Shown here in pieces: positions 1,277 through 28,806 of a stretch of DNA of 40,913 bases; position 1 is the first letter of the stretch; each line of letters opens with the position of its first letter. The DNA comes from Bacillota bacterium. GTDB lineage: Bacteria; Bacillota; Sulfobacillia; Sulfobacillales; JAIMBI01. The notes beneath the pieces are model-generated. The model made no database searches and was not told the DNA's origin. It was given only the letters and a program-made list of their open reading frames with translations. The stretch covers positions 1 to 40,913 of the forward strand of contig JAKADP010000015.1 in assembly GCA_021820465.1 (NCBI GenBank), written 5' to 3'. The translations under genes and the position numbers were made by a program.

Positions 1277-3385
1277 CTAGGTGATGCGGACCAGCAGCAG
1301 GGCGGCCAGCAGCGCGATAAAGGCGTAGCCCACATATGCGTTGACACTGCCGCGATGCATCCGCGCGAAGAGGTGGGCCAGCGTCCGTGCCCCCCGAATG
1401 GCGGGATCCACGATAAGGCGGTCCACCACATAGCGCGCCCCGTCTTCGCGCCGAACGCTGACCCGAAAGTGCTCCGCCACCACCTCCTCGCGGTCCACCG
1501 TCTGACCTGGGCTCAGGACGGCGCGAAAGATCACCCAGATGGGGCGGGCCATGCCGGTGGCCGTGTAGGTGAGGCCTGCATCCACTGTGCGCGCACCGCC
1601 CATCCAAGAATGCCCCCGGCGCACTCGGCCCCGCCCCAACAGCTGGGCTAGGGCAAAGGCCAATGCCAGCGCCACGGCGATCGCCACCGTGAGATACGTG
1701 GGCGACATGGCGAATACGACGCCGGCGTGCAGGCGGGTGCTCGGGTGCATGAACACCACCCCGGGCGCGGGCAGCACGCGCTGCCCGAGGGCCGCCCCCA
1801 GGGGATAGAACGCGGACGCCAGCGCCGGCGGGAGTGTGGCCGGCCGAAAGAACGTGGGAATGAAGGCCTGCACGTCGCGACTTTGAGCTAAGCTGCCCGC
1901 CACCCGGGCCAAGCCGGATGCCACGTACGTGGGCACTATGCCCAGCATCAGCGCCAGCGCCGCAAGAAAGCCCATGGCGGCTCGCTGGCTGACGGTCACT
2001 TCTCGCGCGCGCGCCGCATGGTCGGACCGGTGCCGCCCCAGAAAGGTCATGCCGTAGAACCGAATGAAGGCGGTGGCCGCCAGCCCAGCGGCCAGCGCCA
2101 CGGTGGCGCCGGCCAGGGCGAAGGCCACCTCCAGGGCGGGGTTGGCCATGGCGACGCTGCGCAGCAAGCTTTGCAGCAACAGCCACTCGCTCGCAAATCC
2201 GTTGAACGGCGGGATGGCCGCGATGGCCATCGTCCCGGCCAGCAGGAATGCGCTCGTCCACCGGAGGCGCCGCCCCAGCCCGCCAAGATGGTCCATGTTG
2301 AGTTCGCCGCTCGCTTGGTCGATGGCGCCTGCTCCTAAAAACAGCAGCGTCTTGTACACCGAGTGATTCAGCAGCTGATACAGCGCCGCGATCCACGCCA
2401 GGAGGCCCAGCACCGGCAAGCCCATCCGGTCGAAGGTCATGGCGGCGCCTATCCCGATGGTGATGAGGCCCATGTTTTCGATCGAGCTGTGAGCTAGCAG
2501 GCGCTTGATGTGTGTCTCGGTGGCCGCATAGAGAATCCCCAGAAAAGCGGTGGCGGCGCCCAGACCGAGGACGATAGCCCCGGCGGCTGGGCTGGGTGCG
2601 GGCAGGAGCTGGACGTTGGTCAGGATGATGCCATACAAGCCCAGATTGAGGATGGCGCCCGACAAGACCGCCGACGCATGGGCGGGCGCCGCGGGGTGGG
2701 CGCGCGGCAGCCAACTCATCGTGGGGAACAGGCCGGCCTTGACGCCAAATCCTACGAGCGAGAGTCCAAAGACGGCCCACCGCACTCCTGTCGGCAGCCG
2801 TGCGGGTGCGGCGGCGGCGATGGTCGAAAACGCGATGCTGTGGGCGGCCAGCACCAAAGGCAGCCACGCGGCCACCACCATCAGGAAGCCCAATTCACCG
2901 GCGCCCAGCATGGCGTAGGCGGCCCGGGGATTCTCGGGGGCCTCGTGGTCAAAGACCACCGCGATGTACGACAGCACCGACATCAGCTCCCACGCGACCA
3001 GAAAAGTCACGACGTCGCCCGCCAGGAGGATCAGCGCGATGGAGCCCAACAGCAGGGCCAGCGTGGCGCGAAGCGGCCGCAGGTCGTATCGGTCCCCGTA
3101 TCGGGCCAGGTAGCCTGGGGCAAAGAGGTGCACCGCCAGAAACACAAGGGCCGTCACGACCAGCAGAAATCCTCCCAGGGCCGTGAACGTGAGGCGCAGG
3201 ATCCCCCAACCGGCCAAGGGCCACAACAGCCACTGGTGCCCTGGATGGGTGAGCACTGTCCCGGCCAGCGCCAGCAGCGCCAGGACCTGCGCGACCCCCG
3301 CCGGCGCGGCCCAGCGAGGCGCACGAGACAGCCCTGCCGCTGCTGCGGCCAGCGTCAGGGCGAAGAACAGCGGCACCATGATCAC
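1277..3385 (-). CDS. hyfB: Hydrogenase-4 subunit B-like antiporter-type membrane subunit (HyfB/NuoL family)
   Basis: A polytopic membrane protein of about 702 residues from the Mrp-antiporter / NuoL-N / HyfB family, predicted to move cations through the membrane arm of the complex. Visible family features are LVAWELMSVLSYIAVV, the GFGVKAGLFPTMSWLPRAHPAAP block with the buried lysine and histidine, LAHSSIENMGLI, and a long C-terminal extension after the last antiporter helix. HyfB proteins are usually about 670 residues, so length fits. The start is a GTG at 3385 whose last bases overlap the stop of the upstream gene (GTGA), with GGAGG ten bases before it; an ATG two codons on (3379) is the alternative. 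The long open frame further upstream on this strand is not coding. It is the last gene of the operon, whereas hyfB usually stands near the front of hyf operons. Confidence 0.88.
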   Translation of the reverse strand: MIMVPLFFALTLAAAAAGLSRAPRWAAPAGVAQVLALLALAGTVLTHPGHQWLLWPLAGWGILRLTFTALGGFLLVVTALVFLAVHLFAPGYLARYGDRYDLRPLRATLALLLGSIALILLAGDVVTFLVAWELMSVLSYIAVVFDHEAPENPRAAYAMLGAGELGFLMVVAAWLPLVLAAHSIAFSTIAAAAPARLPTGVRWAVFGLSLVGFGVKAGLFPTMSWLPRAHPAAPAHASAVLSGAILNLGLYGIILTNVQLLPAPSPAAGAIVLGLGAATAFLGILYAATETHIKRLLAHSSIENMGLITIGIGAAMTFDRMGLPVLGLLAWIAALYQLLNHSVYKTLLFLGAGAIDQASGELNMDHLGGLGRRLRWTSAFLLAGTMAIAAIPPFNGFASEWLLLQSLLRSVAMANPALEVAFALAGATVALAAGLAATAFIRFYGMTFLGRHRSDHAARAREVTVSQRAAMGFLAALALMLGIVPTYVASGLARVAGSLAQSRDVQAFIPTFFRPATLPPALASAFYPLGAALGQRVLPAPGVVFMHPSTRLHAGVVFAMSPTYLTVAIAVALALAFALAQLLGRGRVRRGHSWMGGARTVDAGLTYTATGMARPIWVIFRAVLSPGQTVDREEVVAEHFRVSVRREDGARYVVDRLIVDPAIRGARTLAHLFARMHRGSVNAYVGYAFIALLAALLLVRIT

Positions 3386-4095
3386 GAGTCGCCCACCTCC
3401 CGCGCTTCCCGGCTCGAGCCCGTGACCAGCTCCAAGGCGTGGAGGATGGCCAGCGGGGGTGGGGGGCAGCCGGGGACCGTCACGTCCACGGGCACCACGC
3501 GGCTGGCGCCGCCCACCACCGCAAAGCTGTCGGCAAAGAGCCCCCCGTTCAGCGCGCAGACGCCGACCGCCACCACCCGCTTCGGGTCCGGCATCGCCGC
3601 GTAAGTTTCCTCCAGCGCCACCCGCATGCCCACCGTCACGGGGCCGACCACCAATAAGACGTCGGCATCGCGCGGAGTGGGCGAGACGTAGATGCCATAG
3701 CGGTGCAGGCTGTACACGGGACCGAACAGCTGCCGTAATTCGCTCAGGCAGCCGCCGCAGTCGCCGGCGTCTAGGATGCGCACATGGATGGACCGCTGGA
3801 AGCGCGGCGGCAGGGGCGGCGCTGCCGCTAGAGCCCACCGGTAGTCATCCTGCCACTGCACGGGGGATGCGGGTGGCCGGCAGCGCATGCAGTGGATGCA
3901 GTGGTCAAAGTCTACGGCGATGGCTCCGTCCTGCGGCGCCAGGGCGCCGACCGGACAGAGCTCCGGGTCCAAGGAGGCGCCGGCTGGCACAGCCGTCGTG
4001 GCGGGTCGGCCCGGGGTCACACCCGCGGGCAGGCGGGGAGCCCTCGGCCGCAGCGTTCGGACACCGCTTTTCAGTCCCTCCCAGAACCAAGGCAT
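3382..4095 (-). CDS. hyfI: NuoB-like small subunit (HyfI) with an N-terminal half-ferredoxin domain
   Basis: A 237-residue iron-sulfur protein. Residues about 100-237 are the NuoB/HyfI domain: DCGGC (C113, C116), GVC (C180) and PGCPPPP (C210) give all four ligands of its [4Fe-4S] cluster. Residues about 45-80 hold CPVGAL (C47) and CIHCMRC (C66, C69, C72), which is what remains of a two-cluster HyfH-type ferredoxin. In such ferredoxins one cluster is held by the Cys-Pro of the first motif plus CxxCxxC of the second, and those four residues are the ones kept. The three cysteines of motif one and the CP of motif two are missing. Start ATG 4095 has GGGAGG seven bases upstream. The stop overlaps the next gene. 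No separate ferredoxin gene is in the operon. Confidence 0.88.
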   Translation of the reverse strand: MPWFWEGLKSGVRTLRPRAPRLPAGVTPGRPATTAVPAGASLDPELCPVGALAPQDGAIAVDFDHCIHCMRCRPPASPVQWQDDYRWALAAAPPLPPRFQRSIHVRILDAGDCGGCLSELRQLFGPVYSLHRYGIYVSPTPRDADVLLVVGPVTVGMRVALEETYAAMPDPKRVVAVGVCALNGGLFADSFAVVGGASRVVPVDVTVPGCPPPPLAILHALELVTGSSREAREVGDS

Positions 4096-4146: not shown

Positions 4147-5691
4147 CTACCGGTCGGCGTCGGCCACCGACAACCCAAACGTGCTGGCGATAATGGGAAA
4201 GTCCTGAAAGGCGAAGTCGCGTACTGTGTCCGGCAGCCCGTGCCAGTTCAGGAAAGCCGGCGTCATGATGTGGCACCGGTCGATGACGCCGCGGCTGCCG
4301 ACCCGCACCCAGTAGGCCAGCGCACCGGATGGCGCCTCGACAGCGGACAGCCCCACGCCGGGCACCACCGGCACGAAAGCGTGGATGGGGCCGGGGGGTA
4401 GCGTGCCGACCAGCCGCTGGATAAGGTCCATGGCGGCCGCCGCTTCACGGAGGAACACCCGGAATCGCGCGTAGCCATCGCCCTCCGACTCGAGCACCGG
4501 CGCGGCAGGATGCTCGCGATACGCGGCATACGGGTGCCATAGGCGCACGTCGGCCCGGATCTGCGACGCTCGGCCCACGGGCCCCACCACACCCAAGGTG
4601 GCGGCGCGTTCGGGAGCCAGGATGCCGACGGCTTCCAGACGGTCCAAAAAGCTGTTGTCAAGGGCGAGCCGGCGGCAGATGTCCTGCACCGACGCCACCG
4701 CCTGGGCGCCGGCCCGAGCGAGAGCGTGCAACGCGTCGTCGCCGGGATCCCGCGTGAGCCCGCCCAGTGCTACCAGTCCAAACAGGTAGCGATGGCCCAG
4801 GTACCGCCCCGACAGCTGCAGCAGGCGTTCTTCGACCGCAGCCAGGAGGTTGGCGGGCACTGAGAGGCCAGTGGATTCGACGATGCCGGCGAGCGTGCCG
4901 ACGTGGCTCCGCAGGCGCTCCCACTCGGCCAACACGGTCCGGATGGCGCGTGCACGGGTCGGGGCCACGACGGAAGCCAGGGCTTCGACGGCTTGCGCGA
5001 AGGCCAGGCCATGCGCCAAAGCCTGGGTGCCGCTGACGCGCTCGGCCACGAGCAGCGCGCGGGTGGCCAGTTGCCCTTCCATGAGCTTCTCCAATCCCCG
5101 GTACTTGTAAAACAAGCGCACGTGCGCGTGCATTATTTCCTCGCCCACGGTTTCCAACAGGAAGCGCACGGATTCCTGGGCCCCAGCAAACACGGGTCCG
5201 ACCGGCATCACGAACTGCCCGGGCGCCTTGACGATCCGCGGGGGCTCGTAGGGGTCGCGCCCGCCGCCGTGGGTGGGCCTCTCGGGCCGCCTGCGCATCG
5301 GCGCCACACTTTCCGCCCAATCCTCATCGTGCAGGACGAAGTCGCCCAGCTGGGGGTGGCCCGCGAACGTCACGCCAAACAGGTCTTCCGCCTCCCGCTC
5401 GGCCCAGTCCGCGGCAAACACGATGGGCGTGATGCTGGGCACGGCCGCGCCGTCCACCGACACGTCCACCACGAGCCAGCGCGCCGCTGGCCTCATCCAC
5501 ACATAATGGAGGTGGTGACGGGGCGGCTCCGACGTGTGTTCCACCACCAGCCCGATGAAGGGCGGGTGATCCTGGCCCACCAGCTGCCGCACGGTGTCTG
5601 GCAGGTCAGCCAGCGGCGCCCCCACCCGAAGGATGGGCCCACTGCCCGGGGTCCCGGGCGCCTTGGGCGCATCTCGGCCGCCATTCATCAT
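4147..5691 (-). CDS. hyfG: NuoCD-like large subunit (HyfG family) lacking NiFe ligands
   Basis: A 514-residue fusion of a NuoC-like domain (residues about 40-135, with DWAEREAEDLFGVTFAGHP) and a NuoD / hydrogenase large-subunit domain (about 155-514). In catalytic group 4 hydrogenases the first metal motif reads RxCGxC; here the same place reads ERVSGTQ (217-223), so both cysteines are replaced by Ser220 and Gln223. The C-terminal DPCxxC is also absent: the protein ends in IIASTFGLSVADADR. The only cysteines (in DICRRL and DRCHIM) form no CxxC pair. It therefore cannot bind a NiFe centre in the known way and matches Ehr-type complexes. The start overlaps the upstream stop (ATGA). It is the peripheral-arm core next to the NuoB-like subunit. 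Confidence 0.9.
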   Translation of the reverse strand: MMNGGRDAPKAPGTPGSGPILRVGAPLADLPDTVRQLVGQDHPPFIGLVVEHTSEPPRHHLHYVWMRPAARWLVVDVSVDGAAVPSITPIVFAADWAEREAEDLFGVTFAGHPQLGDFVLHDEDWAESVAPMRRRPERPTHGGGRDPYEPPRIVKAPGQFVMPVGPVFAGAQESVRFLLETVGEEIMHAHVRLFYKYRGLEKLMEGQLATRALLVAERVSGTQALAHGLAFAQAVEALASVVAPTRARAIRTVLAEWERLRSHVGTLAGIVESTGLSVPANLLAAVEERLLQLSGRYLGHRYLFGLVALGGLTRDPGDDALHALARAGAQAVASVQDICRRLALDNSFLDRLEAVGILAPERAATLGVVGPVGRASQIRADVRLWHPYAAYREHPAAPVLESEGDGYARFRVFLREAAAAMDLIQRLVGTLPPGPIHAFVPVVPGVGLSAVEAPSGALAYWVRVGSRGVIDRCHIMTPAFLNWHGLPDTVRDFAFQDFPIIASTFGLSVADADR

Positions 5692-7118
5692 CGTAAGCTC
5701 CGGGCCGCCATACCCAGCAGGTGGTAGAGCGGCAGCGGCAGGTAGACGCCGAGCACCAGCACCGGAATGATTCCCACCGCCATGGTGGCCGTCATCGCCC
5801 GAGGAAGTCGGGCGGGCGGGTGCGAGGGTTGGCCAAACAACATGCCCCCCGTTCGCCGCAGAATCCCCAGAAACGCTATCCCCAGAAACACCAGCAGCAA
5901 CGCGAGGACAACGTAGTCCTGCGCCGCGGCGGCGGCTCGGAAAATCGTCAGCTCACTCAGGAAAACGGCAAACGGCGGCGCCCCCGCAATAGCCAGGGCG
6001 CCTACCAAGAGAGCCGCGGCCGCCACGGGCGCGCTCCGCAAGAGCCCGCGGACGTCCGCGATGGTGCGGGTGCCGGTTGCCACCAGCACGCTGCCACTGC
6101 CATAAAACGCGAGCGACTTGGTGAGGCCGTGGGTCATCAGCTGGTAGACGCAGGCCAGCGCCCCCAGGGGCCCGAGGCCGAGGCACAACAGCAGAATGCC
6201 CATGTGCTCCACAGTCGAGAAGGCAAAGAGGCGCTTGTAGTCATGCACCTGAAGCAGCAGGAACGCCGCCGTGCCCACGGACACCAGACCCACGACGAGG
6301 GCCCATGACTCGGGTGAGAAGCCCCTAACCGCCATGAACACGGGCCACAGCCGCAGGATGACGTACAGCACGGTGCTGACCTCGACGCCGGACAGCAGCG
6401 CGCACACTGGGGTGGGTGCTTGGGAGTGCGCGTCGGGCAGCCACGTGTGCATCGGGACAAGCCCGACCTTGGCGCCAAAGCCCACCAGGATGAGCACAAA
6501 CGCCAGCTCCACGGCACCTGCCGGCATGTGGGGAGCCGTCCGAATCAGCGCGCTCCAGGTTTGGGTGGCTACGTGGCTCCGGGTCAAGCCCCACAACAGC
6601 AGGAAAATGCCGAAGGCGGCGACGGTGGCGCCCATAATCGTGATGACGGCGTACTTCCATGCGGCCTCCAACGCCTCGCGGCTGTTGGAGAAGCTCACTA
6701 AAAAGATAGAGAGGACGGTGGTCAGCTCGATCGCCACCCAGGTGAGCACCGGCTGCAGCAAGAGCGGCACGACAAACAGCGAGGCCTGAAACAGATTGAG
6801 GTTGGCAAAGTATTGGCGCTGGCGCGCGGGGCTCTCCGCGGCGATGTGCGGGATGTACCCCCACGAGTAGGCGGCCGCCGTGAGGCCTACGAAACTTTGC
6901 AGCACGAGCATCACGGCCGCCAGGGCGTTCACGCCGATCCATCCAGGCAATAGCACCCCGCCGACGTGGCGCGTCACGTCGCTAGCGGCGGCCAGCGACA
7001 GGGCAAACGCCGCCAGCGCGGCCAAGAGCGTGCTGACCTTCGCCCCGACAACATTCTTCACGGCCAGGCCAATCGCCGCGGCGGCCAGCGGAGCGGCCGG
7101 AATCGCCCACAGAATCAT
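5688..7118 (-). CDS. hyfF: Hydrogenase-4 subunit F-like antiporter-type membrane subunit
   Basis: A 476-residue polytopic membrane protein of the NuoL-M-N / HyfF family, the second antiporter-like subunit of the complex. The hallmark block GFGAKVGLVPMHTWLPDAHS, followed by AP and a valine-rich helix with VEVSTVLY, carries the conserved lysine and histidine of the proton path. FAFSTVEHMGIL is the broken-helix region, and LMTHGLTKSLAFYGSGS follows. Length is normal for HyfF (about 480-525). The ATG start overlaps the stop of hyfE (ATGA), so the two are likely translationally coupled, and its own stop overlaps the hyfG start. It may alternatively be called HyfD/HyfF-like, since these paralogues are hard to separate by eye. 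Confidence 0.88.
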   Translation of the reverse strand: MILWAIPAAPLAAAAIGLAVKNVVGAKVSTLLAALAAFALSLAAASDVTRHVGGVLLPGWIGVNALAAVMLVLQSFVGLTAAAYSWGYIPHIAAESPARQRQYFANLNLFQASLFVVPLLLQPVLTWVAIELTTVLSIFLVSFSNSREALEAAWKYAVITIMGATVAAFGIFLLLWGLTRSHVATQTWSALIRTAPHMPAGAVELAFVLILVGFGAKVGLVPMHTWLPDAHSQAPTPVCALLSGVEVSTVLYVILRLWPVFMAVRGFSPESWALVVGLVSVGTAAFLLLQVHDYKRLFAFSTVEHMGILLLCLGLGPLGALACVYQLMTHGLTKSLAFYGSGSVLVATGTRTIADVRGLLRSAPVAAAALLVGALAIAGAPPFAVFLSELTIFRAAAAAQDYVVLALLLVFLGIAFLGILRRTGGMLFGQPSHPPARLPRAMTATMAVGIIPVLVLGVYLPLPLYHLLGMAARSLR

Positions 7119-7780
7119 CGGGGAACCTCCTCGCCCAGCTGCTGGAGGCTGCTCACTTGGGTGCTGCCCAAGTTTTGCGCGATGGTGCGCGTCAGAATGG
7201 CCACGACCAGCACCACCATGACGCCTTCCAAGCCCGCCGCGGCTTCGACGATGGCGGATGACGTGGTGATGGCCACGCCGGCAAAGAAGACGCCGTTGTC
7301 GATAGCCATGAGGCTCAGCACCTGCGCCACCGCTTCGCGGCGAATGACAAGCGTGTAAACGCCGATCAGGAGGGCGGCCAGCCCGAGTGCCAGGTTCACC
7401 TGCGCCTCGGCCGCATGGGGCCCCAGCAGCGGCGCCGCCAGAAAGAACGCCAGCACGGTCGCGCCCAGCATGAGCAGGAGAGACACCGGCACATTGACGA
7501 CGGACTCAATTTCCCGCCGAGCTCGCAGCTCCTGGCCGAGCGTGCGTGTGAGGACGCCCGGGATGACGATGACTTTGGCGGCGACCGTGATGAGGGCCAC
7601 GATCGCCAGCTGCGCCGAGTGGTGGAGCAGCGCCAGGAGCAGGGTGGACAGCACCAGCAGGAGCGACTGCCCCACGAAGGCGCGCAACACGGATTGAATT
7701 TGCCGAGAGACCATGAGCAGGAACGTCATCAGAATGAACAGGGTCCCTACGACTGTGTTGAGACTCGCCACTGCCGCCAC
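7115..7780 (-). CDS. hyfE: Hydrogenase-4 subunit E-like membrane protein (HyfE; NuoK/MnhC-related)
   Basis: A membrane protein of about 221 residues with six or seven hydrophobic helices. HyfE proteins pair with NuoK/MrpC-type subunits of complex I-like machines and sit between the NuoH-like and antiporter-like subunits. Visible are an N-terminal helix beginning LNTVVGTLFILMTFLL, the RELRARREIESV loop, and a C-terminal VLVVAILTRTIAQNLG segment typical of HyfE. The GTG at 7780 is preferred as start because CAGGGGGG stands a few bases before it; an upstream in-frame start at 7822 would add 14 arginine-rich residues of no family value. It follows hyfC by about 80 bases and overlaps hyfF. Confidence 0.78.
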   Translation of the reverse strand: MAAVASLNTVVGTLFILMTFLLMVSRQIQSVLRAFVGQSLLLVLSTLLLALLHHSAQLAIVALITVAAKVIVIPGVLTRTLGQELRARREIESVVNVPVSLLLMLGATVLAFFLAAPLLGPHAAEAQVNLALGLAALLIGVYTLVIRREAVAQVLSLMAIDNGVFFAGVAITTSSAIVEAAAGLEGVMVVLVVAILTRTIAQNLGSTQVSSLQQLGEEVPR

Positions 7781-7861
7781 GCTGCTGCCCCCCTGTCGTC
7801 GATGGCGCGATCGCCCGACCAAGGAACGGACCTGGGTCCCATGCGGACCCCATGGGACGGG

Positions 7862-8812
7862 TTAGAGGTGAAATGGCTGCACTACCATGGCCAGCACCGC
7901 CACCACAAAAGCCAGCCCCAAGAAATTCTCAATGCGAAACAGCCGCAGCTTGGCCAGCGAGGTCTCTATGCCCGCCACCACGGCGATAAACACCAAAAGC
8001 TTTATAGAAACCAGCAAGGCGCCCAGTGCGACGGCGCCTGCCCCCGGAGAGCTGGCCAAGCCCCAGGGGGTGACCAGGACGTTCACCAGGACAAGGCTCA
8101 GCACCATCAGCTTGCTGTGGCTGCCCCACTTGACCAGGGCCGCGGAGCGCCCGGAGAACTCGAGCGTCTTGGCCTCATCGATCATCGCCAGCTCAAAGTG
8201 CCCGGACGGATTGTCCACCGGGATGCGGCCCGTCTCCGCCAGGATGATCATGACGAAGGCCGCCACAATCAGCACGTGGGTGGGCGACACCAATGCCGCC
8301 GCTGACGTGGTCCAGTGCGCCTGCACCACGTATGGGATGGTGGAGTTGGCCGCAAACGACACCGAGAAAAACACGATCATGAAGATGGGCTCCACCAGCG
8401 AACTGACCATCCGGGTGCGGCTGGTTCCCATGGGGCCGTAGGGGTTGCCGCCATCGATGGCGGCCAGGGCCAGAAAGAACCCGCCCAGTCCTAGAATGAA
8501 GCCGGCCGCCACCATGTCCCCCATGAACGCCCAAAACAGCGGGAAGTCCGTCAGCGCCGGAATCAGCATGGTCACCAGCAGGGGCGCCACAAAGTACATA
8601 AAGGGGGCGAAGCGAAAGATCCAGGTGGACTCCTCCGACACCACCTCGTCCTTTTGCAAGAGCTTTATCAGGTCAAAATACGGCTGCCAGATGCTGGGCC
8701 CCAATCGGCCCTGCAGCCGCTCCTCGAAGCGGTTGAGCACGCCGCGGAACAGCGGTGCGGCCGCCACGACGAAGGCGACCTGGGCCGCGTTGAGCGCCAG
8801 GCCCTGGATCAT
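7862..8812 (-). CDS. hyfC: NuoH-like membrane subunit (HyfC / respiratory NADH dehydrogenase subunit 1 family)
   Basis: A membrane protein of about 316 residues homologous to NuoH/HyfC, the subunit that joins the peripheral arm to the membrane arm. Family signatures are RLGPSIWQPYFDLIKLLQKDE near the N terminus, AETGRIPVDNPSGHFELAM and IDEAKTLEFSGR in the middle (the E-x-E-R-P-like loop region), and several hydrophobic helices. Length is normal (HyfC about 315). The ATG at 8812 has GGGGGG seven bases upstream and is preferred over a TTG at 8833. It is the first gene of the operon. A promoter at 8954-8981 and a leader hairpin at 8839-8875 lie upstream. Confidence 0.9.
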   Translation of the reverse strand: MIQGLALNAAQVAFVVAAAPLFRGVLNRFEERLQGRLGPSIWQPYFDLIKLLQKDEVVSEESTWIFRFAPFMYFVAPLLVTMLIPALTDFPLFWAFMGDMVAAGFILGLGGFFLALAAIDGGNPYGPMGTSRTRMVSSLVEPIFMIVFFSVSFAANSTIPYVVQAHWTTSAAALVSPTHVLIVAAFVMIILAETGRIPVDNPSGHFELAMIDEAKTLEFSGRSAALVKWGSHSKLMVLSLVLVNVLVTPWGLASSPGAGAVALGALLVSIKLLVFIAVVAGIETSLAKLRLFRIENFLGLAFVVAVLAMVVQPFHL

Positions 8813-8838
8813 TCCGGTGCCCCCCGTCCGCAAAACAA

Positions 8839-12728: not shown

Positions 12729-14756
12729 TTAGAAGTGGATCAGGTAGTGCACGGCAAACACGGGGCCGATCAGGAGCGCCACAATGTTGACCACCTTGAT
12801 CATGGGGTTGATGGCGGGCCCGGCGGTATCCTTGTAGGGATCGCCCACCGTGTCGCCCGTGACGGCGGCCGCATGCGCCTCCGTGCCCTTGCCTCCATAG
12901 TGGCCCTCTTCGATGTACTTTTTGGCGTTGTCCCAGGCTCCGCCGCCCGCGGTCATCTGGATGCCCAGGAACAGGCCGGTGACAATGACCCCCACCAAGA
13001 GGCCCCCCAGCGCGAGCGGCCCCAGCAAGAGCGCCACGATGATGGGCGCCAAGACGGGAATGAGGCCCGGGAGCACCATTTCCTTTAAGGCGGCCCGGGT
13101 CACGATGTCCACGGTCCGGGCGTAGTCGGGCACGGCCGTCCCCTCCATCAGGCCCTTGACCTCCCGGAACTGCCGCCGCACTTCTTCCACGACAGCCATG
13201 GCCGCGCGGCCGACGGCTTCCATAGCGAGCGCGCCGAACAGAAACGGGAGGATGCCGCCTAGGAACAGCCCGACCAGCACCAGCGGACTCTCCAAGCTAA
13301 ACGTGAGGTGCAGGTGGTTTCGGACGGAGAGCTCCTGCGTGAAGGCGGAGAAGAGGACGATGGCCGCCAAGCCCGCCGAGCCAATGGCGTAGCCCTTGGT
13401 GACGGCCTTGGTGGTGTTGCCGACCGCGTCCAGCGGGTCGGTGATGGCGCGGACCTTCTCGTCCATGCCCGACATTTCGGCGATGCCGCCGGCGTTGTCG
13501 GTGATGGGCCCAAACGCATCAATGGTGATGATGATGCCCGTCATGGACAGCATCCCCATGGCCGCCACGCCCACCCCGTACAGCCCCAGGCCGAAGTGCG
13601 TCCCCAAAATATACGACGCGATGATGCCCGCGACGATGACCAAGACCGGCAGCGCAGTGGCTTTCATGCCCACGGCGAGTCCGGTAATGATGTTGGTGGC
13701 GTGCCCGGTCTGCGACGCGGCCGCAATCCGCCGGACGGGTCCGAAGCTCGAGGACGTGAAGAAGTCGGTAATGTACATGATGAGCACTGTCACCGCGAGC
13801 CCCACTAGGGCGGCTCCAAACAGATAGCGCCAGTTCGGGCCGCCGATGATATCCTGCGACACCAGCCAAAAGCCGACCGCCGACAGGATCACCGTAACCC
13901 ACAGACTGGTGTACAGCGTGCTCATGATCGCCGTGCCCTTGGGCGTGCGGAGCGCCAGCACTCCAATGATGGAGGCGATGATCGCCACGCCGCCGATGTA
14001 CAGCGGATAGAGAATCACGCTCATGGACGGATGCGTGAGGTAGCCCAGCACCATGGCCGCCACCGCGGTGACCGCGTAGGTTTCAAACAGGTCGGCCGCC
14101 ATGCCCGCGTCGTCGCCGACGTTGTCGCCGACGTTGTCCGCAATCACGGCCGGGTTGCGCGGGTCGTCTTCGGGAATCCCAGCCTCGACCTTGCCCACCA
14201 GGTCCGCTCCCACATCGGCCGCCTTCGTATAAATGCCGCCGCCCAGTCGGGCAAACACCGAGATCAAGCTGGCGCCGAAGGCAAACCCCAAGAGGTCGGC
14301 CGGGGCGGAGGCGAACCGGGCTGACACAGACAGGCCCAATAGGCCCAGCCCCACGACAAACAGGCCCGTCACGGCCCCGCCGCGCACCGCCACCTTCAGG
14401 GCAGCGGGGAGCCCATGGGTCGCTGCCTCGGCCGTGCGCACGTTGGCGCGCACCGACACGCTCATCCCGATGTACCCGGCACTGGCGGACAGCACCGAGC
14501 CCACCACGAAAAAGATGGCAGTCTCCAGGTTTAACACGAGCCAAATGACGAAAAACAGGACGACGGCCACCATGCCGATGGTCCGGTACTGGCGGTTCAG
14601 AAAGGCAAAAGCCCCATCTTGAATCGCCTTCGCAATGCGCTGCATCACCTCATTGCCGGGGGGCAGACGGAGAATCCAGCTAATCAAAATGCCCCCATAC
14701 GCCAGAGCGACGAGGGCGGCCACAATAGGAAAAACCAGTTCGCCCCAGTTTGCCAT
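12729..14756 (-). CDS. hppA: K+-independent membrane-bound proton-pumping pyrophosphatase
   Basis: A 675-residue integral membrane pump with about 16 helices that couples hydrolysis of pyrophosphate to proton export. The substrate site is intact: [20 protein letters not shown] (from residue 181), [13 protein letters not shown] (207-219), and later the C-terminal [18 protein letters not shown]. The selectivity segment reads [15 protein letters not shown], with Lys450 and Thr453 where K+-dependent enzymes have Ala and Gly, so the K+-independent class is predicted. The ATG start is preceded by AGGAGG at an unusually long 14-base spacing, inside the imperfect palindrome AGGAGGACATCTCCT. It has its own promoter and terminator, so it is probably monocistronic. 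Confidence 0.96.
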
Positions 14757-26782: not shown

Positions 26783-27021
26783 CCATGGAGCAGGCGGTAC
26801 AGAGCCGCGCCGTGCCACAGACGGGGTGTGGGTCGACCCTTGCCCTGACCCACAAGCGGCCCACCGTCCCGAGGCGTACAATGGGGCCAGCAGGGGCGAG
26901 CGCGTGTGTTGGCCCGCCCCGGGCCATGGAGCTGGCCCCCGTCGCATCGGCGACTGATAGCTCCTGCCACAACGGTGCGAGCATGCGCCCAAGAGGGCGG
27001 CTTGCTCAGGAGGCAGGCAAG
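26783..27021. other. Gene-free stretch before the dynamin-like gene
   Basis: No gene is supported here. It contains a TACAAT (26877-26882) that could be a -10 box, without a convincing -35, and the perfect palindrome GGGTCGACCC (26830-26839). The dynamin-like frame is open through most of this stretch, but the upstream residues have no family likeness. Confidence 0.4.
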
Positions 27022-28806
27022 GTGGACTGGGCCGACGAGACCGATGTGACGGCCGCGATCGAGCGGCTTGGCCGGTTGGGGGAGGAGCAGGGGGTCGAGG
27101 GCGTCGCCGCTGCCCTGCACGCGCTCGCCCAACGCGTCCGCCGGCATGAATTTCGGCTCGCCGTGGCCGGCCAGTTCAAGCGAGGAAAATCCACGGTGAT
27201 CAATGCGCTGGTGGGACGTCGCCTCCTGCCTGCGGACGTCCTCCCGCTCACCTCCGTGCCGACCCTGGTGGGGCAGGGCCCCAGGGACCACGTGAGCGTG
27301 GCTCTGCAGACGGGTGCCACGCTGTCCATTCCGCTCGAGGAGCTGCCGGAGTTTGCGACCGAGACGCATAATCCCGGCAACGTGCGCGGCGTGCAGCACA
27401 TCGCCGTGGAGATTCCCGACCCGATGCCGGTCAACAACCTGTGGCTGGTAGACCTACCGGGCATTGGCTCCACCGTGGAAGCCAATTCGAGGATTGCGTA
27501 TGCCAGCTTGGATATGGCGGACGCGGCCGTGTTCGTGACGGGGGTCGATCCGCCGCTGACCGAGCAAGAGTCGCGCTTCCTGGATAACCTGTCCCACCGG
27601 GTGCCTCGCGTGTTTGTCGTGCAGAACAAGCGGGATCTGTTTGCCGAGGGCGACTGGCGCCGAGCCCTTGCGTTCAACGCGGACCAAGTCGCAGCAGTTT
27701 TGGGGCCCACGGCCATTTTCGGAGTCTCGGCCTGGGGGGCCTTGGAGGCGAAGCTGCACCACGACACCTCATACCTGCGGGCGTCCGGCTGGGCTGAGTT
27801 TGAGTCGGCGCTGGTGACGTTTTTCCGCCATGACCGCCAACGGGTTTGGCAAGCGTCGGTCGCGGCCAAGGTTGGGAGTGCCGTTCGTCCCGTGCTGGAG
27901 GCGCTGGCCGTGCGTGAAGCGGTCTTGGGAGCCCCGGTGGAACACCTGCGCGACCGCCTGCGGCATGTTGAACAGCGGGCAGCGGAAGTCCACCGCGCCC
28001 GCGACGACGCCGGGGTGCTGCTGCGCCGCGATCTGGCCCGAGAACTTCAGGCGCTGGACCGCCGACTGGCGGCGTGGGCGGCCGAGACGTGCTCGTCGCT
28101 GAGCGAGCGGCTGGCCGAGCTGGCGACCGCGGGCGCGCAGCACCGGCAGGCCGCCAGCGACCCTCTGTGGAAAGCCGCCGCAGACGCCGCGGCCCGGCAG
28201 CTCGCCGCGGAGGAGGTGGCGTGGCGCGCGTGGTGGCAGGCGCGCCTCGACCAGCTGACGCAAATGGGCGATCGGCTGGCGAAAGACATCCATCAAGCCT
28301 ACGAAGAGGAGTGGGGCGTCCAGTGGAGCGTCTCGTCGGCGTTGGTGCTGCCGCGCCCCGAGATCGCGCTCAGGCTGTCGGCCGTCGACCGCGCCAGCTT
28401 CTTTCCTGACGTGTCAGACAGCATCCTGGGCCTGATGCCGGCGCGAATCCGACGTCGCATGGTGATGACAAAAACCGCGAGGCGGGTTTGGGAAGTGGTG
28501 GACCAGCTTCACGGGCGCGTGCGGCAAGCCGTGGCGGGTGCGGCCGACGCCACGGCCAACGAACTGCTGACGCGCCTTGGCCACGAACTGGGCCACTTGG
28601 AGCAGCGGCTGGCCGCCGTCGTCGAAGCCACCGTGGCCGAGCGGGAAGCGGCCGAGGACGCTGGGCCGCGGATGGCTGCGGAGCTGACGACCCGTCGCGT
28701 CGAATGGCAGCGTGCGCTGGATGACGTCAACGCGGCGCTGCAGCAGGGGCTGACGCGCGAGGCGAGCGAGCCGATGGTGGAAGAGCCGTCACGACCTTTC
28801 GGCTGA
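27022..28806 (+). CDS. Dynamin-family GTPase
   Basis: About 594 residues. The N-terminal GTPase domain shows G1 at GQFKRGKST (residues 50-58), a G2 threonine in LPLTSVPTLV, G3 DLPGIGS (144-150) and G4 NKRD (202-205). The rest is long, helical, rich in Ala, Arg and Glu, and probably coiled coil (about 330-470 and 530-590), with a short hydrophobic ILGLMPARIRRRM segment near 470 that may be the membrane paddle. Bacterial dynamin-like proteins bind and reshape membranes or act in membrane stress and phage defence; the role here is unknown. Most such proteins come in pairs, but only one gene is here. GTG 27022 has AGGAGG eight bases upstream; earlier in-frame starts lack one. Confidence 0.85.
   Translation: MDWADETDVTAAIERLGRLGEEQGVEGVAAALHALAQRVRRHEFRLAVAGQFKRGKSTVINALVGRRLLPADVLPLTSVPTLVGQGPRDHVSVALQTGATLSIPLEELPEFATETHNPGNVRGVQHIAVEIPDPMPVNNLWLVDLPGIGSTVEANSRIAYASLDMADAAVFVTGVDPPLTEQESRFLDNLSHRVPRVFVVQNKRDLFAEGDWRRALAFNADQVAAVLGPTAIFGVSAWGALEAKLHHDTSYLRASGWAEFESALVTFFRHDRQRVWQASVAAKVGSAVRPVLEALAVREAVLGAPVEHLRDRLRHVEQRAAEVHRARDDAGVLLRRDLARELQALDRRLAAWAAETCSSLSERLAELATAGAQHRQAASDPLWKAAADAAARQLAAEEVAWRAWWQARLDQLTQMGDRLAKDIHQAYEEEWGVQWSVSSALVLPRPEIALRLSAVDRASFFPDVSDSILGLMPARIRRRMVMTKTARRVWEVVDQLHGRVRQAVAGAADATANELLTRLGHELGHLEQRLAAVVEATVAEREAAEDAGPRMAAELTTRRVEWQRALDDVNAALQQGLTREASEPMVEEPSRPFG

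Follow-up and report, generated by a model that had tools for sequence, protein, structure and literature searches.

The operon and its genome

The window, meaning the whole stretch of 40,913 nucleotides analysed here, carries a six-gene minus-strand operon in the order C-E-F-G-I-B, and the small subunit that it encodes begins with a fused half-ferredoxin. The genes of the operon and the features of the small subunit are as follows.

1277..3385 (start about 3379 or 3385), minus: HyfB-like antiporter subunit (domain and sequence matches)
3382..4095, minus: HyfI/NuoB-like small subunit with fused half-ferredoxin, 237 aa (ORF and domain matches)
3412..3810, minus: NuoB/HycG domain, residues 96-228, with C113, C116, C180 and C210 (Pfam, PDB sequence and structure matches)
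3466..3468, minus: C210 codon (fourth N2-type cluster ligand), with another residue in 30 of the best-scoring 80 of 245 relatives (alignment)
3856..3969, minus: one-cluster ferredoxin domain, residues 43-80 (profile and structure comparisons)
3880..3900, minus: C66-x2-C69-x2-C72, three ligands of the kept cluster (sequence and alignment)
3955..3957, minus: C47 codon (Cys-Pro), fourth ligand of the kept cluster (sequence and alignment)
4069..4092, minus: amphipathic helix at the N-terminus (residues 2-9), resembling that of HycF/NuoI, with a long loop after it (residues 10-42) (helix predicted in both AF2 models; 34-aa N-terminal profile match)
4147..5691, minus: HyfG-like large subunit (NuoC+NuoD fusion) without NiFe cysteines (domain matches and motif inspection)
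5688..7118, minus: HyfF-like antiporter subunit (domain and sequence matches)
7115..7822, minus: HyfE-like membrane subunit (domain and sequence matches)
7862..8833, minus: HyfC/NuoH-like membrane subunit (domain match)

A membrane H+-pyrophosphatase gene lies near the operon (12729-14756), and an ISL3-type transposase fragment lies at the contig edge (2-451).

At the two NiFe motif positions the HyfG-like subunit reads RVSGTQALAH and FAFQDFPIIASTFGLSVADADR, neither of which contains a cysteine, so the complex falls outside the known NiFe hydrogenases; the pair of CxxC NiFe-binding motifs that defines the large subunit of group 4 [NiFe]-hydrogenases is missing. Respiratory complex I has an NADH module and a separate NuoI, and both NuoEFG and NuoI are absent from the operon. 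The composition agrees with the Ehr/Hyq type as it is described in PMC4378227 and PMC3357923, that is, six Hyf/Nuo-like subunits with the NiFe ligands absent. The canonical quinone-binding His and Tyr of NuoD are missing at the aligned positions of the HyfG-like subunit.

The genome comes from a relative of Sulfobacillus, to judge by its order-level relatives. A search of its contigs found no HyfH gene except one HycF/NuoI-like match on contig C162, which also carries the third NuoB-type and NuoD-type matches of the genome and is read here as a complex I region. The same genome has a second six-gene NiFe-less operon (contig C6, locus L036, 4941-11873), which has no HyfH and whose small subunit has zero ferredoxin cysteines, so complexes of this kind can do without a HyfH-like wire. 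The first-pass annotation had proposed that the half-ferredoxin replaces the missing HyfH. The absence of HyfH held apart from the match on contig C162, but the need for a replacement was not supported, because the second operon also lacks HyfH.

The small subunit and its cysteines

Residues 1-112 of the small subunit contain exactly four cysteines, namely C47 (followed by P48), C66, C69 and C72, and no ligand of a second ferredoxin cluster was found in the sequence upstream of C113. This bore out the earlier claim that one cluster's four ligands are kept and those of the other are lost. In the NuoB part C113, C116, C180 and C210 are all present, so the protein has eight intact ligand cysteines in total. 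An artefact of the gene model was ruled out, as the frame is uninterrupted and relatives match it from residue 1 onwards. Pfam gave an Oxidored_q6 match over residues 113-221 (E 6.6e-27), and the best PDB sequence match of the whole protein was HycG (7z0s_G, E 3.8e-31). With its NuoB fold and four cluster cysteines the protein belongs to the NuoB/HycG (Oxidored_q6) family. Of a HyfH/HycF subunit it has the helix, the loop and the colinear homology, and the second cluster's ligands and the C-terminal part are absent; judged by its sequence, the N-terminal domain is a descendant of HyfH/HycF and not a full member.

The AF2 model of the whole protein had a mean pLDDT of 88.2 and a pTM of 0.85, with pLDDT 88-92 across residues 31-70, and placed a helix at residues 2-9 ahead of a long loop, an arrangement that PMC9474812 describes for HycF and further superfamily members. 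In the structure search the C-terminal domain matched HycG 7z0t_G (Z 20.9, rmsd 2.1 over 140), and the listed matches of the full-length model were NuoB chains, which carry no information on the N-terminus. When the N-terminal domain was modelled alone the pLDDT was 72, which is moderate confidence, and the domain-only search had ferredoxins and ferredoxin domains in its top rows, but these matches were weak (Z about 3.2, 1fdn residues 1-53); FrhG also appeared among them.

Two-cluster ferredoxins bind one of their clusters through the Cys-Pro of motif 1 together with the first three cysteines of motif 2, and in complex I this combination of Cys-Pro and CxxCxxC provides the ligands of N6b. E. 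coli NuoI has C70 and C74, and its Cys74 is given within the N6b environment (PMC8357420), which is consistent with N6b being bound by NuoI C70 together with C99/102/105. The path in complex I runs N6a-N6b-N2, so that N6b is the medial cluster (PMC7021789). By homology we infer that the ligand set kept in the window protein is that of medial cluster N6b, nearest to N2, and if the domain docks like NuoI/HycF, this cluster would adjoin the NuoB cluster. In the formate hydrogenlyase relay each step is below 14 Å (PMC9474812).

Conservation among relatives

A scan of named genomes gave 245 relatives, and the residue counts below were made on the best-scoring 80 of these (loci L056-L135), so relatives that have lost the domain could sit among the other 165. 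The two scan patterns drew on the NuoB-domain cysteines C113, C116 and C210 but on no ferredoxin cysteine. The counterparts of C47, C66, C69 and C72 were kept in 80/80, 80/80, 79/80 and 80/80 of these best-scoring relatives, and all four were invariant in the 9/9 sequences of alignment A1, while the mean column identity of the half-ferredoxin domain was only 46% despite its near-fixed cysteines. The earlier note had named close relatives without these cysteines as evidence against it, and this is not what was seen; the same 80 proteins supplied the other NuoB proteins with this N-terminal layout that it had suggested looking for. The best 80 came from eleven phyla, namely Bacillota, Pseudomonadota, Acidobacteriota, Vulcanimicrobiota, Spirochaetota, Planctomycetota, Myxococcota, Thermodesulfobacteriota, Verrucomicrobiota, Actinomycetota and Campylobacterota. 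The half form is widespread, and not peculiar to the window as the first-pass annotation had implied. Metagenome-assembled genomes made up the majority of relatives, and the isolate Acidithiobacillus concretivorus ATCC 19703 (L120) was included. Four relatives (L101, L122, L126 and L133) were considered as two-cluster forms and rejected, since each has a stray cysteine and its sequence identifies it as a half form.

Wherever the large subunit next to a half form was readable, it lacked the NiFe cysteines, and the order C-E-F-G-I-B was kept in most complete relative loci. No redox partner (HyfH, formate dehydrogenase or other) recurred beside the half-form operons in the relative loci, and no viral relatives of the protein were found. 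In large-subunit trees, which were built without any small-subunit column, the half-ferredoxin rows formed one clade (SH-aLRT 99 with 102 rows; 100/99 with 75 rows), and this clade grouped with the zero-cluster type and L047 (99/91). The root of the large-subunit tree rests on a single very long outgroup branch. Comparison of the window with three close relatives gave a Ka/Ks of about 0.19-0.31 for the N-terminal 95 residues and their sub-segments, and 0.045-0.146 for the NuoB domain.

Conservation in at least eleven phyla indicated that the trimmed domain is an established feature of an energy complex that has received little study, and not a gene in decay, and the earlier suggestion of a selected architecture agrees with the eleven phyla, the single clade and these Ka/Ks values. 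That the half-ferredoxin is a decaying remnant of a two-cluster ferredoxin has become very improbable: L096, the only one of the best 80 of 245 relatives without C69, and with Gln at position 210 too, points that way, but the ligands are kept in 79-80 of 80, and this conservation largely refutes the idea.

A dynamin-like GTPase gene (26785-28806; Dynamin_N, 3e-20) lies 18 kb from the operon in the window, and ten named loci from several phyla (L075, L086, L108, L112, L118, L127, L129, L130, L131 and L132) have such a gene no more than a few kb from their half-ferredoxin operon; Sulfobacillus proper was without a strong dynamin-like match.

Position 210 and the NuoB-type cluster

The fourth ligand of the NuoB-type cluster was much more variable. 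At position 210 the best 80 of 245 relatives had Cys in 50, Asn in 15, Asp in 8, His in 4, and Gln, Ser and Thr in 1 each, with replacements in L060, L071, L081, L082, L096, L107, L118 and others. Misalignment was excluded because the surrounding PGxPPPPLA motif is intact, and since one of the two scan patterns contained C210, its true conservation is lower, if anything. On the large-subunit tree at least 4-5 changes between Cys and non-Cys occurred at this position, and outside the half-ferredoxin clade C210 was present in all aligned rows. Three Planctomycetota copies (L116, L134 and L135) had Val instead of C116.

With C210 replaced in 30/80 of the best-scoring relatives, the half-ferredoxin is the better-kept cluster, and the natural reading would be that some members of the family have altered the type of their NuoB cluster and left the half-ferredoxin cluster unchanged. 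A bolder and tentative version, to which we give well below even odds, is that the fused medial-type cluster, and not the N2-type one, is indispensable, and that the NuoB cluster with C210 replaced is a [3Fe-4S] cluster or some other modified centre of high potential. If so, the complex I wire would have been rebuilt around the other key cluster, feeding new non-NiFe chemistry.

The same replacements could be taken to mean that the half-ferredoxin cluster is a structural or docking aid and passes no electrons to the NuoB cluster, and the zero-cluster paralogue operon adds to this, as the complex can exist without that cluster. We consider it unlikely, because all four ligands are nearly fully conserved and their position lines up with HycF, which is proven to relay electrons (PMC9474812).

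Origin of the half-ferredoxin

The N-terminal domain profile matched E. coli HycF from residue 1 with 22.9 bits and HyfH with 16.1 bits, and against PDB HycF (7z0s_F) profile positions 1-76 aligned with chain positions 1-82 (E 6.9e-4). This colinearity from residue 1 supports a descent of the domain from HyfH/HycF. A full two-cluster HycF-HycG fusion was found in Bacillota (L136-L152), with 87 bits to HycF 1-110 and 178 bits to HycG 19-160 in one chain, and several of these loci have true NiFe motifs in the large subunit. Given this fusion in other Bacillota, the half form is most easily explained as HyfH joined to HyfI and cut down; on the sequence evidence the simplest history would be that the fusion came first and one cluster was then lost. 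We infer the trimming from a tree rooted, as noted above, by one very long outgroup branch. At a Proteobacteria locus (L064), P0003 (11078-11884, minus) is a two-cluster HyfI fusion with an N-terminus in the style of the half forms, which adjoins a half-ferredoxin operon and looks like an intermediate.

The best PDB profile match was the ferredoxin domain of DsrA (3mm5_A, E 1.1e-6), with the identical layout CP...CxxCxxC, so an independent origin was retained as a rival, in which a separate one-cluster ferredoxin domain, for instance a DsrA/DsrB-like one, was fused to the small subunit and no HyfH was trimmed. This is quite unlikely in our view, because the HycF match alone spans helix, loop and cysteines, the Cys-free 34-aa N-termini of the half forms match the profile of HycF/HyfH and two-cluster fusions, and related complexes contain two-cluster fusions of the same layout.

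In the zero-cluster paralogues TTGYP-like segments hint at a vestigial HycF N-terminus, but we do not claim one, as most of these proteins scored near chance against the HycF N-terminal profile. In four NiFe-containing Bacillota operons (L138, L143, L145 and L154) the first motif of the fused ferredoxin is irregular, with a spacing unlike CxxCxxC, which is possibly another partial-cluster form.

Proposed role

Our preferred reading, to which we assign a probability of about 0.7, is that the protein serves as small subunit in a six-subunit complex of Ehr/Hyq type that lacks NiFe, and that its HyfH/HycF-derived N-terminus, trimmed to an N6b-like cluster, relays electrons that drive a pump. A low-potential soluble carrier, probably ferredoxin, would reduce the half-ferredoxin cluster directly, and direct ferredoxin input near this segment of the wire has a precedent in NDH-1 (PMC7021789). 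Electrons would then pass to the NuoB-type cluster, both clusters presumably being [4Fe-4S], and on to a two-electron acceptor at the old NiFe pocket in HyfG, and this transfer would drive ion pumping through HyfB/F/C. The acceptor is perhaps a quinone, which is only a guess because NuoD's His and Tyr are absent at the aligned HyfG positions. The persistence of a paralogous operon without any fused ferredoxin cluster counts against this relay.

The two-, one- and zero-cluster small subunits of related complexes form a natural series, in which the fourth N2-type ligand has changed several times, and the series bears on the minimum working length of the cluster chain in complex I, formate hydrogenlyase and their kin. 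Cultivable acidophiles, e.g. Acidithiobacillus, allow direct tests of which clusters are required and of the function of NiFe-less Ehr/Hyq complexes.

Comparison with known systems

NiFe-less six-gene complexes are already known. Ehr of Sulfobacillus is, as here, a NiFe-less group 4-like six-gene cluster, and its function is stated as unknown (PMC4378227). Acidithiobacillus thiooxidans orf1-orf6 is likewise a NiFe-less group 4-like six-gene cluster of function stated as unknown, in which orf4 is the large and orf5 the small subunit, fitting C-E-F-G-I-B (PMC6002666). Hyq of Azorhizobium caulinodans (HyqBCEFGI) has the same six subunit kinds, lacks both CxxC NiFe motifs and has a NuoB-type small subunit, and H2 activity is reported for it (PMC3357923); there HyqI is described with NuoB-type cysteines only (55, 58, 112, 152) and no ferredoxin cluster is reported, unlike in the window protein. 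The available parts of PMC4378227, PMC6002666 and PMC3357923 made no mention of a fused half-ferredoxin. A literature search, with subscription journals mostly outside its coverage, found no description of such a fusion, and its novelty is provisional.

FrhG, the gamma subunit of F420-reducing hydrogenase, has a NuoB-type domain and a ferredoxin in one chain, as here, but its ferredoxin is C-terminal and it belongs to a NiFe enzyme. The inserted ferredoxin domain of DsrA/DsrB (3mm5) shares CP...CxxCxxC, and its host is a sulfite reductase, which is unrelated. The E. coli pairs HycF+HycG and HyfH+HyfI (7z0s/7z0t) resemble the window protein, HycF having the helix, loop and ferredoxin and HycG the NuoB domain, but E. 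coli formate hydrogenlyase has these as two proteins, with two clusters and a C-terminal metal site in HycF, and with a NiFe site.
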